Shown here piece by piece: positions 36,687-42,224 of a DNA stretch of 64,000 nucleotides (position 1 is the stretch's first letter; the number at the start of each line of letters is the position of its first letter). The translations under genes were made by a program, and so were the position numbers. The DNA lies in contig JAMLHR010000007.1 of assembly GCA_023957015.1 (NCBI GenBank), positions 1 to 64,000 on the forward strand. The letters are read 5' to 3'. This DNA comes from Thermomicrobiales bacterium (GTDB lineage: Bacteria; Chloroflexota; Chloroflexia; Thermomicrobiales; UBA6265). The notes below the pieces were generated by a model. That model did not search any database. It worked only from the letters and a program-made list of their open reading frames with translations, and was not told where the DNA came from.

Positions 36687-37475
36687 CTAGAGATTCGATG
36701 GTATCCCCATTGTTGTCTCCAACCACCGTCGTCCACTGGCCAACAGGATGATAACAACCAGCCCCAGAATAGCGGCGAAGGCTCCTGGTGCGTGAAGCTG
36801 CGGTCGGTGAACGATGCGATCGTCAATGCGAAAAAGTAACATCCCGGTGACCAGCACCAGCGTACTCACTACCATCCAGGCTGAGAATGTCAGGAAGAGC
36901 GTCAGAGGCAGATACATCCAGTCCAAGGACAATCGCAATGCGAGTCCAAGCAGAGGCAGTCCGGTCAGAATGATCGCCAGATCACTCCAGCCCCGTATCG
37001 ATGGGGTACGATCCGCGATCTGATAGACCGTGCCGCCCAACAGCCAAACCAACGCAACAGCAATCGTGACGCCAGCACCGTAGCCGGTGATCAGTCGCAT
37101 GAGATTGGTCGTCTCCCAGGGGTGCCAGACGCCGACGTCCGTGAGAAAGGAGTTGCTGCCATCCAGCGCCATTGCCGCCAGCATTCCTCCCAGAACCACA
37201 CGGATTGGCCAACTTGGCAGGGCATCGCTCAGCAGTCGCCCTCGCGTCGCAAGATAGAGGATAGTTACACCAGCGCCAGCGTAGACGCCCGTCATCCGGG
37301 CATCAAATGGCAGCAGCTGACCGCCGATGACAAAGGTATGCGACGGTGTCTGCGCGCATAGCCCATGGAGCAGCAATCGGGAGTTGGTCGCCAATCCACC
37401 CGGCATCAGGAGCAGCACTGCCATACCCAACAGAACAGCAGCAGGCCACAGCCAGTACTGACGCAGCGCTGCCAT
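36687..37475 (-). CDS. DUF2085 family membrane protein
   Basis: 262 residues, about seven membrane helices. The family signature is seen as LLHGLCAQTPSHTFVIGGQL followed by LPFDARMTGVYAG (Cys40, His46 and Asp59 are the polar residues likely to matter). C-terminal helices are followed by SGRRWLETTMG. Its start directly abuts the stop of the MFS gene (37475/37476), so they are co-transcribed. Function of DUF2085 is unknown; its place after a lipid-exporter-like pair suggests an envelope role. Confidence 0.85.
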   Translation of the reverse strand: MAALRQYWLWPAAVLLGMAVLLLMPGGLATNSRLLLHGLCAQTPSHTFVIGGQLLPFDARMTGVYAGAGVTILYLATRGRLLSDALPSWPIRVVLGGMLAAMALDGSNSFLTDVGVWHPWETTNLMRLITGYGAGVTIAVALVWLLGGTVYQIADRTPSIRGWSDLAIILTGLPLLGLALRLSLDWMYLPLTLFLTFSAWMVVSTLVLVTGMLLFRIDDRIVHRPQLHAPGAFAAILGLVVIILLASGRRWLETTMGIPSNL

Positions 37476-39053
37476 CTAGGTGGCCTCGATCGGAATGTGT
37501 TTCATCCGCATGACCGGAACAATCGCCAGAGCCGTCAACGCGGCCGCCACCAGGAACGTCTCCTGCATTACCTGCACGCCGAGTGGCGAAAGCACCTCAT
37601 TCACAAACTGTTGCTGTCGCACGAAGTATCCCGCAGTGGACTCACCGGGCTCCTGGACGATCGGGTCAAGTCGACCCGTCAACTGCTGCAACCGGTAGAT
37701 TCCCGCAGTCGTAACCAAACTCATACCGATGGTCATACCAAGCAATCGACAGAGGAGAGCCGTGCTCGTGGCGGCGCCTCGATTCGAGTCATCGGCAGCA
37801 TCGAGTGCCGTAGCACTCAGCGGCGCCATGAGCATACCGATGCCCGCGCCAGCAATAGCAAGTCCGGGAACGATGTGCCAGAGATGGTCCATATCGATGA
37901 GAAGATAAACGCTCCCGAAACCGAGCGCCGCCAGAACCACACCGAGACGCGCCATCGTCCACTCACCAATACGGGCGCCAATGCTACCGCTTGCAAGTGC
38001 GAAGACGGCGATAGTGAGCGTCAGTGGGATGAGCAGCAATGCGGAGTCGCGACTCGCCGAGCTGTCGCTGGATAGTGACACCAATACCGGGATGTTCACC
38101 ATGCCGACCATCAGCGCGGCCCCAATGAGGAAGTTCGCGAAGACCGTCGCGACGAAATATCCCTGGCGAAAAAGTTCCATCGGGAAGATGGGATGAGGAG
38201 CGCGTCGCTCCCATACCACTAACGCAATGTCACCGATAATCGTGATACCGATCAGCATCGGCAGGTGCTCACCCATCGGATTGGGTGTACCACCAAACGC
38301 TCGTAGCCCCGTGTTCACGCCAGCACCATGATCACCACCGGAACTGATGGCGAGATTGCTGGCGACCAACACAACGGCCAGGAGCACGATACCTAGAAGG
38401 TCGATATCGGTGAGAGGTCTCTGACTGCCGCGATTGCCGTGCGGGAAGCCTCGCCAGATCGCGAACAGAGCGATGATCGCCACTGGCACATTGATCCAGA
38501 ACACCCATCGCCATGGATCGTGATGGTTAGGAACGATCGCCAGTATCGCCGCACCCCAGGTGGGTCCCATCACCCAGCCAAGCGTTTCCACCGAGCTGAC
38601 GAGGCCGATACCGGCCAACCGCATCCGCGGAGGTAGGACATCGCCCGCCAGCGCGACGGTCACGGGCAGGAGTCCACCACCGCCCATGCCCTGGATCACG
38701 CGACCGACGATGATAGTGGTCATCGAATCGGCCGACGCGGCGACAATCGAACCGACGGCGAAGATGAGCAGACACGCCATGAACGCGATCTGACGACCCG
38801 TGTGATCACTCATACGACCAACAATCGGGATCGCGACCACATAGGCGATAAGGTAGCTATTGACGATCCAGATATAGCGATCGAAATCGGCGGTATTGAC
38901 GCCAAGATCGCCGATCATCCCCGGCAGGATGCTGGCGATAACGGTGAGATCGACGGCACTGACGAAACAGCAGAGGAGCCCAGCCAGGATAGCCGGACTT
39001 CCTAGCATCGTCCGAAAAGTCTGCGCCAGTGTCGGATTAGTTTGGTCGTTCAA
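37476..39053 (-). CDS. DHA2-family MFS transporter (EmrB/QacA type)
   Basis: Proton-driven exporter, 525 residues with about 14 membrane helices. Seen: Asp in helix 1 (SAVDLTVIASILPGM, motif D1), motif A GRMSDHTGRQIAF, motif B GRVIQGMGGGGLLPV, and motif C region SVETLGWVMGPTWGAA. The gene start overlaps the end of the LppX/LprG-like gene by 17 bases. In mycobacteria an MFS of this class (Rv1410c, P55) is encoded with the lipoprotein LprG and together they export lipids. The same order here suggests, but does not prove, a lipid exporter. Also possible: drug efflux. Confidence 0.9.
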   Translation of the reverse strand: MNDQTNPTLAQTFRTMLGSPAILAGLLCCFVSAVDLTVIASILPGMIGDLGVNTADFDRYIWIVNSYLIAYVVAIPIVGRMSDHTGRQIAFMACLLIFAVGSIVAASADSMTTIIVGRVIQGMGGGGLLPVTVALAGDVLPPRMRLAGIGLVSSVETLGWVMGPTWGAAILAIVPNHHDPWRWVFWINVPVAIIALFAIWRGFPHGNRGSQRPLTDIDLLGIVLLAVVLVASNLAISSGGDHGAGVNTGLRAFGGTPNPMGEHLPMLIGITIIGDIALVVWERRAPHPIFPMELFRQGYFVATVFANFLIGAALMVGMVNIPVLVSLSSDSSASRDSALLLIPLTLTIAVFALASGSIGARIGEWTMARLGVVLAALGFGSVYLLIDMDHLWHIVPGLAIAGAGIGMLMAPLSATALDAADDSNRGAATSTALLCRLLGMTIGMSLVTTAGIYRLQQLTGRLDPIVQEPGESTAGYFVRQQQFVNEVLSPLGVQVMQETFLVAAALTALAIVPVMRMKHIPIEAT

Positions 39054-39732
39054 TCTTCACGTCTTTGCCGTGATCCGAGAGCGTCAGCGTCCAGGTTGCG
39101 GGGTCGTCCAAATCTTCGTCGGTTGGTTCAGCGATGCGGATACGCAGCAGATTGCTGTTCTCCTTGTCGATCCACACCTCCAGGGACTGCGTCGTTCCCC
39201 GCATCGTGCCACTGGTCATTTTCTGTGTGACTTCGCCCTCAACCGTGGCGGTAACATGCCAGGTCTCGCGACCATCGATCTTCTCGCTGTCCTGAAGCTG
39301 GGGATCATCCATTCTGCCCATCACCGGTCCCAGGCCATCCGTATCATCGTAGAGCACGGACGGGTTGTAGCCGAACTCCGGTGGACTTGGCACCCACTTG
39401 CCGGTGACGATATCGGTGATCCAGGCATCCTCGCCGACGGTGATCATGCGGATGCTGATCTGCTGGGTCTTTAGCACCAGAGCGGTGAAGGTGACATCGA
39501 CCCTGTCTGGCCGCTGCATCACCCCCTCGGCACCGAGGAGCTGAATCGTCTTCATCTCGTCAACGTACGTGGTGCCCTCCAACTCCATTTTGAAAGACAT
39601 CGAGTCCGTTTCCTGGAGTCGAGTGGCAGCATCGCTGAGAATCGTTTCGATGTCTGCGTCTTCGGCGAGTGCCACACGCGGTGCGATGAGCGCTCCGCCT
39701 ACGATCGCGCCGATCAGCTGTCGTCTGTTCAT
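39037..39732 (-). CDS. LppX/LprAFG-like secreted protein
   Basis: 231 residues. Start at 39732 with AGGAAGGTGAG just upstream. Seen: signal peptide MNRRQLIGAIVGGALIAPRVALA with a twin Arg and an ALA-E cleavage site (residues 1-23); there is no lipobox Cys, unlike the mycobacterial lipoproteins. The mature part has the LolA/LppX pattern: helix IETILSDAATRLQETDSMSFKM, then strands with YVDEMKTIQLLGAEG, RPDRVDVTFTA and WITDIVTG. These folds form a hydrophobic cavity for lipids. Located ten bases after PAP2 and overlapping the MFS exporter, an LprG-Rv1410c-like pairing. Confidence 0.82.
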   Translation of the reverse strand: MNRRQLIGAIVGGALIAPRVALAEDADIETILSDAATRLQETDSMSFKMELEGTTYVDEMKTIQLLGAEGVMQRPDRVDVTFTALVLKTQQISIRMITVGEDAWITDIVTGKWVPSPPEFGYNPSVLYDDTDGLGPVMGRMDDPQLQDSEKIDGRETWHVTATVEGEVTQKMTSGTMRGTTQSLEVWIDKENSNLLRIRIAEPTDEDLDDPATWTLTLSDHGKDVKIERPN

Positions 39733-39742
39733 ACTCACCTTC

Positions 39743-40483
39743 CTAGATTCCACTTCGGCGCCACGGCACCAGGCTCATGCGCTTGGCGCGGCGATACAAC
39801 GATGTCAACATGACCAGATACGTTGTTCCCAGCAGGTAGCTCGCTAGTGTGTCCGTTGCCCAATGATGACCGAGATAGACCCTGCTTACTCCCACCAGGC
39901 CAACAAGTCCAATCAAACCGCCAACAACCACCCGGCGCACACTCTTCGTCTCGATCCAGAGTGCTGCCAGGTACGCGGCAAAACCGTAAACACCTGTGTA
40001 GATAATGACGTGACCGCTCGGGAAACTGGTTCCGCCGATATTAGCCTTGGTTACCCGCAGATGAGGGTACTTTGGCCCCGGGCGTTCGCGCTTGACGATG
40101 CGTTTGAAGATTGAGCTCACACCGCCCGTTCCCCAGGCTGCCAATTGGAATACTGCCTCGAGTCGATAGCCCTTCAGCCACAAGGCAGCTGCCAGACTCG
40201 GTGGGATAATGCGACTTTGCGGCGGGAATCCGGGCCAACTAACGATGTGCATCAAACGGTCAAACCAGGGATGCTTCGCTCCCTCGGTTTGAACAGTGTG
40301 CGTGATCTTGACATCGACATCGGTCGTCTTCTGTGCTCGCACGCGAGAAAATACGTCGGCAAATAGCAACATGGCAAATGCGCCCCAGAGGATCTTGGGC
40401 AATTTGCGCGATACCGAAACCCGCTCAGGATCAAGCCGGTTATTGGCACCAGTTGTCAGAAACCGCAGGATGCGCTTAAGCAT
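39743..40483 (-). CDS. PAP2-family phosphatase
   Basis: Membrane-bound phosphatidic acid phosphatase / undecaprenyl-diphosphatase-like enzyme, 246 residues. Start 40483 (MLKRILRFL) has GAGG six bases upstream. Seen: the three-part active site KRIVKRERPGP, SFPSGH and SRVYLGHHWATD, with five or six membrane helices around it. Likely removes phosphate from a lipid phosphate outside the membrane. Next gene encodes the LprG-like lipid-binding protein, which supports a shared envelope-lipid pathway. Preceded by rpe at 50 bases. Confidence 0.92.
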   Translation of the reverse strand: MLKRILRFLTTGANNRLDPERVSVSRKLPKILWGAFAMLLFADVFSRVRAQKTTDVDVKITHTVQTEGAKHPWFDRLMHIVSWPGFPPQSRIIPPSLAAALWLKGYRLEAVFQLAAWGTGGVSSIFKRIVKRERPGPKYPHLRVTKANIGGTSFPSGHVIIYTGVYGFAAYLAALWIETKSVRRVVVGGLIGLVGLVGVSRVYLGHHWATDTLASYLLGTTYLVMLTSLYRRAKRMSLVPWRRSGI

Positions 40484-40533
40484 GAAGACCTCGTTGTCCA
40501 TTCGAAATTCGTGGTCAATCTACCGAAACCGGG

Positions 40534-41199
40534 TTACTGATAACCAGCCCGCAGCGCCGCGATGCTCTCGGCAATCGTCCGGGACGGGTTGAACGTGTAG
40601 CTTCCGGCCACGATGCTGCACGCTCCTGCTGCCACCACTTTACCGATCGTCTGATCGTTCACCCCGCCATCCACCTGAAGTCGGCAGGACGGATTGATCC
40701 GATCCATCATCTCGCGCATCCGCGTGATCTTGCCGAGCATCTCATTGATCAGCGTCTGTCCACCGAATCCCGGATTGATCGTCATCACCAACACCTGATC
40801 GACGAACGGGAGCATCTCGGCGACCGCTGCGAGCGGCGTCGAGGGATTGATCGCAATGCCAACCCCCTTCCCCTTCGCCCGAATCGTCTGCGCAACGCGA
40901 TGCGCGTGCGGCGTGGCCTCAATATGAAACGTGACGGAATCCGCGCCAGCGTCAGCAAAAGCCTCAACCCAGGCATCCGGATTGACGATCATGAGGTGAA
41001 CATCAATCGGCAGAGAGGTGCCGCGTCGCGTTGCTTCGAGTACCGGCAGCCCGACGCTGATATTCGGGACAAACGCGCCATCCATGACATCGAAATGGAT
41101 ATAGTCCGCACCCGCAGCCTCAAGTTCGGTCAACTGCTCGCCAAGGCGAAGGAAATCTGCGGAGAGAATCGATGGGCCAATGATGACCGGTTGAGCCAT
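40534..41199 (-). CDS. rpe: Ribulose-phosphate 3-epimerase
   Basis: Interconverts ribulose-5-P and xylulose-5-P in the pentose phosphate pathway. Seen in 221 residues: TIM barrel starting GPSILSADFLRLG, the metal ligands in DYIHFDVMDGAFVPN and DVHLMI, NPGFGGQ, and LQVDGGVN. Start 41199 has AAAGGAC seven bases upstream; the GTG at 41205 lies too close to it. Diverges from the PP2C gene across 113 bases. Adjacent rpe and PP2C genes are also common in Firmicutes (prpC-rsgA-rpe), though there they are co-directional. Confidence 0.95.
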   Translation of the reverse strand: MAQPVIIGPSILSADFLRLGEQLTELEAAGADYIHFDVMDGAFVPNISVGLPVLEATRRGTSLPIDVHLMIVNPDAWVEAFADAGADSVTFHIEATPHAHRVAQTIRAKGKGVGIAINPSTPLAAVAEMLPFVDQVLVMTINPGFGGQTLINEMLGKITRMREMMDRINPSCRLQVDGGVNDQTIGKVVAAGACSIVAGSYTFNPSRTIAESIAALRAGYQ

Positions 41200-41312
41200 G
41201 GACACGTCCTTTGACTGGAGCGAAACGAGCGTTCATCTAGCGACTACCAGTCTACGGTATCATCTGGCTGTACGCGCGGAATCCGCCGCTATTCACTTAC
41301 CGGAGGACATCG

Positions 41313-42224
41313 TTGAGCATCCAGACTCCCGAACTTCAGATGCAGGTTGGTGCCGTGAGCCACACCGGTGGTCGCGCAAACAACGAGGACGCGATTCTGG
41401 CGGAACCGATCGCACTTCGCAGCGATCTTCCTTCCGGCGGTTGGGTACTGGCGGTGGCCGACGGCATGGGCGGTCACGCCAACGGTGAGATGGCCAGTAA
41501 CCTGGCGATCCAAACGCTACGTGAATCCTTGCCAGGCAACGACCAATCCGATGCCGCACTCGCATTGAAGCAAACGTATCGGAAGGCGAACGCGGCGATC
41601 TACGCCGCTGGTGGCGAGGAATCCGATCAACACCCAGGTACGACACTGGTCGCGGCGGTAGTGCGCGGCAAATACGTCACAATTGCCAATGTTGGTGACT
41701 CTCGCGCTTATCTGATGCGCGCGAATCAGTTAACCCAGATCACACAGGATCACAGCGTGGTGGCCGAGCAGATCGCGGCAGGCGAGCTCGCTCCAGGCGA
41801 GGATCGCACCAGCCCGCTCAGGAACAAGCTGACCGCGGCGCTCGGCACGACGGCTGAGCTGGAGCGTCGACTCCCGGCGATCTACGAGCTGGTTCTCCTG
41901 CCTGAGGATCGATTGCTCCTCTGTACCGACGGTTTCTACGATGTGCTCCAAAACACGGATTATCTGAACCTGATGTCCGGTGAGGATGCGCAGTCCTCGG
42001 CAGTGGCGCTGACGGATCTCGCCATGCAACGCCGGACTACGGATAACGTTAGCGCCGTTGTGCTGGCGGTTGGCAGCAGTCTGGCAACGATGCAGCGCGC
42101 GGAGATCGCCCGGGATCTGGCCGAACATCGCGCCGAGCAAGGTACCAGCATACTGGTTCCGGTGATCGTGTTGATCATCCTGACGGCGTTGGTGGCCGCT
42201 GGCGTTTGGTACTGGATGTTCTGA
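41313..42224 (+). CDS. PP2C-family Ser/Thr phosphatase with C-terminal membrane anchor
   Basis: Metal-dependent protein phosphatase, 303 residues. Seen: motifs HTGGRANNEDA, LAVADGMGGHANGE (metal-binding Asp-Gly), VGDSRAYLMR, TQDHS, LLCTDGFYDV and TTDNVSAVVL; then a short linker and one C-terminal helix (about 280-301) ending WYWMF. The catalytic domain is cytoplasmic. Starts at TTG 41313 six bases after GGAGG. No protein kinase partner lies in the window. Likely reverses Hanks-type kinase signalling linked to cell wall or growth. Confidence 0.93.
   Translation: MSIQTPELQMQVGAVSHTGGRANNEDAILAEPIALRSDLPSGGWVLAVADGMGGHANGEMASNLAIQTLRESLPGNDQSDAALALKQTYRKANAAIYAAGGEESDQHPGTTLVAAVVRGKYVTIANVGDSRAYLMRANQLTQITQDHSVVAEQIAAGELAPGEDRTSPLRNKLTAALGTTAELERRLPAIYELVLLPEDRLLLCTDGFYDVLQNTDYLNLMSGEDAQSSAVALTDLAMQRRTTDNVSAVVLAVGSSLATMQRAEIARDLAEHRAEQGTSILVPVIVLIILTALVAAGVWYWMF

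Follow-up and report, generated by a model that had tools for sequence, protein, structure and literature searches.

An LprG-P55-type gene pair in Thermomicrobiales (Chloroflexota) with a carrier that lacks the lipobox

Organization of the locus

The window analyzed here is a stretch of 64,000 nucleotides from a Thermomicrobiales bacterium (assembly GCA_023957015.1, contig JAMLHR010000007.1, positions 1 to 64,000), the genome of which is 2.84 Mb in size and 91% complete. On the minus strand of the window, a gene for an LprG-like lipid carrier with a signal peptide and no lipobox (39037-39732; PF07161 LppX_LprAFG, 2.5e-22) is followed by one for a P55/Rv1410-type DHA2 transporter of the major facilitator superfamily (MFS) (37476-39053, with a TTG start at 39053; MFS_1, 1e-44). 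This pair is the subject of our study. It has co-directional neighbors on both sides, a PAP2-superfamily phosphatase gene upstream (39743-40501; PF01569, 1.8e-17) and a gene for a DUF2085 membrane protein downstream (36687-37475; PF09858, 5.9e-17). The PAP2 stop lies 10 bp from the carrier ATG, the carrier and MFS genes overlap by 17 bp, and the DUF2085 gene follows the MFS gene with a gap of 0 bp. The four-gene cluster with overlaps or gaps of at most 10 bp that was originally predicted is thus confirmed by open reading frame (ORF) coordinates and Pfam matches.

A ribulose-phosphate 3-epimerase gene (RPE; 40534-41205, minus strand; PF00834, 6.8e-74) stands first in the co-directional run, giving the order RPE, PAP2, carrier, MFS and DUF2085. 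The four ORFs from PAP2 to DUF2085 are real and abutting, and the product of each of the five scored far over its own Pfam cut-off. Since RPE is only 32 bp before PAP2, the unit may comprise five genes. The carrier starts at the ATG at 39732, with AGGAAGG just upstream and an in-frame GTG at 39753. The PAP2 ORF begins at 40501, has an internal ATG at 40483, the start taken in the original prediction, and retains intact catalytic motifs (KRIVKRERP, PSGH and SRVYLGHHWATD). A terminator-like stem was noted after DUF2085 at 36697-36680, stems of this kind being frequent by chance. Given the tight spacing and this stem, co-transcription of the run is plausible. A PP2C-like phosphatase gene, named from reading of its ORF, is divergent from the run (41313-42224, plus strand).

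The transporter is a relative of P55

When the sequences of solved structures were searched with phmmer, the best match of the window MFS was MHAS2168 (8pnl; 4.7e-51), the Rv1410 homologue, well ahead of EfpA (9e-22) and EmrB (2.5e-17). A Foldseek search with the MFS model again placed MHAS2168 first (5e-21 versus 4e-16 and 2e-15), the TM-scores giving no separation. Named relatives of the MFS occur in Thermomicrobiales bacterium YPbin1, at 61% identity, and in Chloroflexi bacterium UBA6265, at 80%, both of the same genus as the window.

A tree that included the window MFS was computed for 112 DHA2 proteins by a quick LG+G4 run, which gave a long-branch warning for some rows. It contains a P55 clade of 73 rows, namely the window MFS, MHAS2168 and a further 71 proteins, that has a Shimodaira-Hasegawa-like approximate likelihood ratio (SH-aLRT) support of 100 and is drawn solely from Chloroflexota or Actinomycetota; its internal branching is more doubtful than its existence as a clade. 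An LprG-type carrier is linked, directly upstream, in 68 of the 73 members and in 0 of the 39 other DHA2 proteins, the linkage of MHAS2168 having been scored from the literature and that of the remaining rows from their loci. The genome's own DHA2 paralogue falls outside the P55 clade and has no linked carrier. As judged from sequence, the window MFS is a true relative of P55/Rv1410. Grouping with drug-efflux pumps and lack of the carrier gene in relatives would have refuted the original prediction; the MFS instead groups with P55, and relatives retain the carrier gene beside it. These analyses also place LprG-P55 outside the Actinobacteria, as predicted, here in the Thermomicrobiales of the Chloroflexota.

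Could the MFS nevertheless be a DHA2 drug-efflux pump, with the carrier as a bystander or accessory? The NCBIfam scan gave a match to the EmrB subfamily (TIGR00711, 1.5e-53), and P55, too, entered the literature as a drug pump (PMC8829022). However, the TIGR00711 match reached 182.3 bits against a cut-off of 230.2, and both the tree and the linkage set the window MFS apart from all other DHA2 proteins sampled, the genome's own paralogue included, which makes this explanation highly unlikely. The drug-pump names returned by the scan, every one of them sub-cut-off, were not adopted. The efflux proteins EfpA, EmrB and QacA share the DHA2 fold with the window MFS, and D35, R118, N188 and R436 are found in most of the DHA2 proteins sampled, but these pumps fall in separate clades and the non-P55 DHA2 proteins sampled have neither the acid in transmembrane helix (TM) 5 described below nor a linked carrier.

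Rv1410 requires a Glu in TM5 and an Arg in TM11, which form an ion lock, as well as an Asp in TM1, linker helices and the arms formed by a long TM11 and TM12 (PMC10576003). In the Mycobacterium tuberculosis protein, these residues are E147 and R417 for the lock and D22 in TM1. All 73 members of the P55 clade, but 0 of the 39 other DHA2 proteins, have a TM5 acid at residue 156 or 157 in the numbering of the window MFS. The acid is at 157 (QELG) in mycobacteria and some Chloroflexota, and at 156 (ETLG or DTLG) in the branch of the window. One row (L136) carries acids at both positions and is a possible intermediate. An acid at either of these adjacent positions is a marker by which P55 could be told apart from every other DHA2 protein in our sample, and P55 and other DHA2 proteins tend to receive like annotation. 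The TM1 residue, D35, is not diagnostic, being present throughout the P55 clade (73/73) and in 32 of the 39 others. The TM11 residue, R436, is present in the window MFS yet common across DHA2, and we dropped it as an ion-lock marker since 36 of the 39 other proteins also have Arg there. In the AlphaFold2 (AF2) model of the MFS, with a predicted local distance difference test score (pLDDT) of 82.8, TM11 (422-459, 38 residues) and TM12 (473-509, 37 residues) are extended, and helices at 219-243 and 261-284 occupy the place expected for the linker helices.

The carrier is an LprG homologue without a lipid anchor

The carrier scored 80 bits against PF07161, for which the cut-off is 24. Its AF2 model (pLDDT 90.6) has LprG (3mh9) as top solved match (TMt 0.83, E 2.9e-14), and also matches the phosphatidylinositol mannoside-bound 3mha and triacylglyceride (TAG)-bound 4zra LprG entries. 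The carriers LppX (TMt 0.76), LprF (0.75) and LolA (about 0.5) have the same superfamily fold, LprG scoring highest. The modeled carrier is of LprG-type fold and, going by its match to the lipid-bound entries, may have a hydrophobic cavity for acyl lipids. The family match and the best structural match together support the earlier description of an LppX/LprG-like secreted protein, the mature part of which extends from about residue EDADIE.

The signal of the carrier contains RR (MNRRQLIGAIVGGALIAPRVALA), and a lipobox cysteine was not found in its signal region. The twin-Arg signal and missing lipobox of the earlier description can thus both be read in the window, though the RR is not conserved: it is missing from the two closest relatives (genomes G447 and G446), and is also present in several lipobox-bearing members of the family. 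Export by the twin-arginine translocation pathway is possible for the window carrier, RR not being a conserved trait.

We compared the signal regions of 112 distinct carriers, of which two truncated ones were excluded, leaving 110 that were readable. A lipobox cysteine is present in 100 of these (two, LNAC and PAAC, judged by eye) and absent in 9, all from Thermomicrobiales and including that of the window. The carrier of locus L087 (G407) has a very long low-complexity linker ahead of the LprG domain and an ambiguous N-terminus, and was left unclassified among the 110. Within the genus of the window, the subclade formed by the window genome, G447 and G446 has no lipobox, and G448 keeps it. 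Elsewhere in the order, the lipobox is missing on separate branches (L101, L103, L107, L125, L134 and L135); in L125 (G402) the N-terminus resembles an uncleaved helix in place of a lipobox signal. Mapped on the order tree, this pattern implies five changes, of which well-supported branches force four, and thus about five losses of the lipobox within Thermomicrobiales. With no such cysteine, the window carrier is a homologue of LprG, not an LprG lipoprotein. As the anchor has been lost more than once, the carrier can presumably function as a free protein.

Distribution of the pair

PF07161 was above cut-off in 149 of the 400 Chloroflexota genomes sampled, and in most of the PF07161-bearing genomes that we examined the best MFS match adjoins the PF07161 gene. 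In Thermomicrobiales, the loci show that carrier and MFS are adjacent in 39 of the 40 sampled. In some genera of Chloroflexia (for example G024, G295 and G353; L016-L018, L045, L053 and L057), LprG and P55 are both present on different contigs, and the operon therefore appears to be split in these genera. Loci of other Chloroflexota and of Actinomycetota (Actinomadura, Streptosporangium and Glycomyces) have the same gene order and fall in the same clade as the window pair; unlike the window carrier, their carriers keep the lipobox.

The original prediction allowed for an undescribed lipid-export system. What we find is the known LprG-P55 module, widespread in the phylum, in an unusual setting, that of bacteria with no Omp85-type outer membrane. 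No literature linking LprG with Chloroflexota was found in a search that left out most subscription journals. The novelty of the finding is limited because the Pfam family PF07161 already takes in these proteins and because our coverage of the literature is partial.

Within the order, the pair is usually flanked by a PP2C-like gene in divergent orientation and by RPE in convergent orientation. By the synteny of the 40 loci, the former is the most constant upstream neighbor in Thermomicrobiales (L099-L136), ahead of PAP2 or DUF2085, and the latter lies just downstream of P55 in many of these loci. We also observed RPE within a few kb of the pair, again oriented opposite to it, in 12 mycobacterial loci (L157, L160-L167, L171, L174 and L189), and not near it in the other lineages sampled. 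Its proximity in Thermomicrobiales and mycobacteria may reflect shared neighborhood ancestry or coincidence.

No conserved partnership with PAP2 and DUF2085

The original prediction regarded PAP2 and DUF2085 as two components added to the export system. Among the 40 loci surveyed in the order, they flank the pair only in G447 besides the window, with identities to the window proteins of 83% for MFS and PAP2 and 64% for DUF2085. In G446 PAP2 is also beside the pair, and the contig ends after P55. Neither the congeneric G448 nor any of the remaining order loci that we sampled has this layout, so that a survey of relatives did not bear out a conserved four-gene order.

Elsewhere in the family, DUF2085 and PAP2 stand together in divergent orientation with no LprG-P55 between them (19 of the 20 loci fetched). 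DUF2085 is beside NERD-HolB-RicT-RecN, and PAP2 is followed in 17 of the 19 by ileS, which we identified by reading its sequence, without a profile search. The contig of the twentieth locus, that of G448, starts in PAP2 and continues to ileS. Because the two genes are found together without the pair elsewhere in the family, a rearrangement in one subclade has put the pair between them. At an orthologue-level threshold (E < 1e-30), PAP2 was matched in 29 and DUF2085 in 27 of 32 family genomes, DUF2085 being retained in nearly all of them next to NERD and holB. Two genomes, G253 and G442, retain both yet have no P55-level MFS. We also considered PAP2 and DUF2085, adjacent family-wide, as an ancestral functional pair of their own, and set this aside because the two genes diverge and are each part of an adjoining run of housekeeping genes. 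No relevant study of DUF2085 was found in the literature searched.

We conclude from this synteny that PAP2 and DUF2085 have no conserved partnership with LprG-P55, which they join in three genomes of one genus only. A single dedicated system of four genes, in which PAP2 would make a neutral lipid, for example by removal of phosphate, and DUF2085 would help in the membrane, appears improbable. Such a system would fit the abutting or overlapping genes on one strand, the retention of the layout in G447 and, to the contig end, in G446, and the terminator-like stem after DUF2085; in addition, BacA is encoded elsewhere in the genome, so that PAP2 is not needed as the sole undecaprenyl-diphosphatase. 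Against it stand the absence of the layout from G448 and all other order loci sampled, the location of PAP2 (by ileS) and DUF2085 (by NERD-holB) in two divergent runs elsewhere in the family, and their persistence in G253 and G442 without a P55-level MFS. The narrower proposal of a lipid-secretion operon confined to the subclade, with PAP2 dephosphorylating the lipid, P55 extracting it, free LprG carrying it out and DUF2085 assisting, is one to which we give little credence. If true, it would amount to a soluble lipid shuttle in a cell without an outer membrane, and we know of no counterpart in the LprG family.

Candidate substrate and destination

Omp85 was not found in the window genome or in 16 others, in a search that was positive in 7 of 14 controls. 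Thermomicrobium roseum, of the same order, was reported to lack outer-membrane genes, and its membrane is built on long-chain 1,2-diols (PMC2615216). Because no Omp85 was found, in line with T. roseum, there would be no conventional outer membrane for the pair to load.

Export of TAG exactly as by mycobacterial Rv1410 would be favored by the homology of both proteins and by the match of the carrier fold to the TAG-bound 4zra entry. However, the wax ester synthase/diacylglycerol acyltransferase WS/DGAT (PF03007) was not found in 32 family genomes, other TAG routes not having been searched, nor in G347, G390, G118, G288, G148 and G153. The PF03007 profile, silent in all controls of the initial run, did give matches in Mycobacterium, Actinomadura, Streptosporangium and Amycolatopsis as positive controls. 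With the diol-based membrane of T. roseum and the lack of an Omp85-type outer membrane also speaking against it, this explanation is rather unlikely, and TAG as substrate is doubtful. WS/DGAT is present in G166 and G282, other Chloroflexota that carry the pair. PF07994 (inositol-phosphate synthase) was tried as a test for inositol lipids and was uninformative, as it missed the Mycobacterium genome too. On our analysis, the substrate would best be called a multi-acyl membrane lipid.

Interpretation and significance

We consider it likely that, in a cell lacking an outer membrane of the Omp85 type, the two genes encode a lipid-export pair of the LprG-P55 (Rv1411c-Rv1410c) type, composed of a proton-driven extractor and a secreted carrier. 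The DHA2-type MFS with its two linker helices would pull a hydrophobic multi-acyl lipid from the cytoplasmic membrane, protons driving the extraction via the TM5 acid near the TM11 arginine, and the long TM11-TM12 arms would hand it over to the carrier with its LprG fold. Most relatives have a carrier that is a membrane-held lipoprotein; in the genus subclade of the window, a free secreted carrier with no anchor would bring the lipid to the cell wall or outside the cell. PAP2 and DUF2085 came to stand in the same gene run in this subclade only. Also in favor of our interpretation, a mycobacterial double knockout is not rescued by either protein on its own (PMC8829022).

The window pair resembles LprG-Rv1410c (P27-P55) of Mycobacterium in having carrier and then MFS in one operon, an LprG fold, membership of the P55 clade, a TM5 acid with a TM11 Arg, an extended TM11-TM12 and linker helices. 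Its differences from that system, namely a carrier without a lipid anchor, a TM5 acid (E156) one residue earlier than in Rv1410, and a TM9-TM10 hairpin that is ∼10 residues shorter and has no strands in the AF2 model, weigh against our interpretation, as do the WS/DGAT result for the family genomes, a further difference from the mycobacterial system, and the fact that we found no data on transport or binding by a Chloroflexota member. We treated the hairpin as non-defining because its deletion is tolerated in mycobacteria (PMC10576003).

Work on LprG-P55 has treated it as a device of mycobacteria, required for virulence, by which the mycomembrane is sealed with TAG. To our knowledge, no mycomembrane is expected in Chloroflexota. 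Since the pair is also found across Chloroflexota, with no Omp85 in the genomes tested and no WS/DGAT in the family, and in other actinomycetes, its distribution suggests that the original job of LprG-P55 was not the loading of the mycomembrane with TAG.

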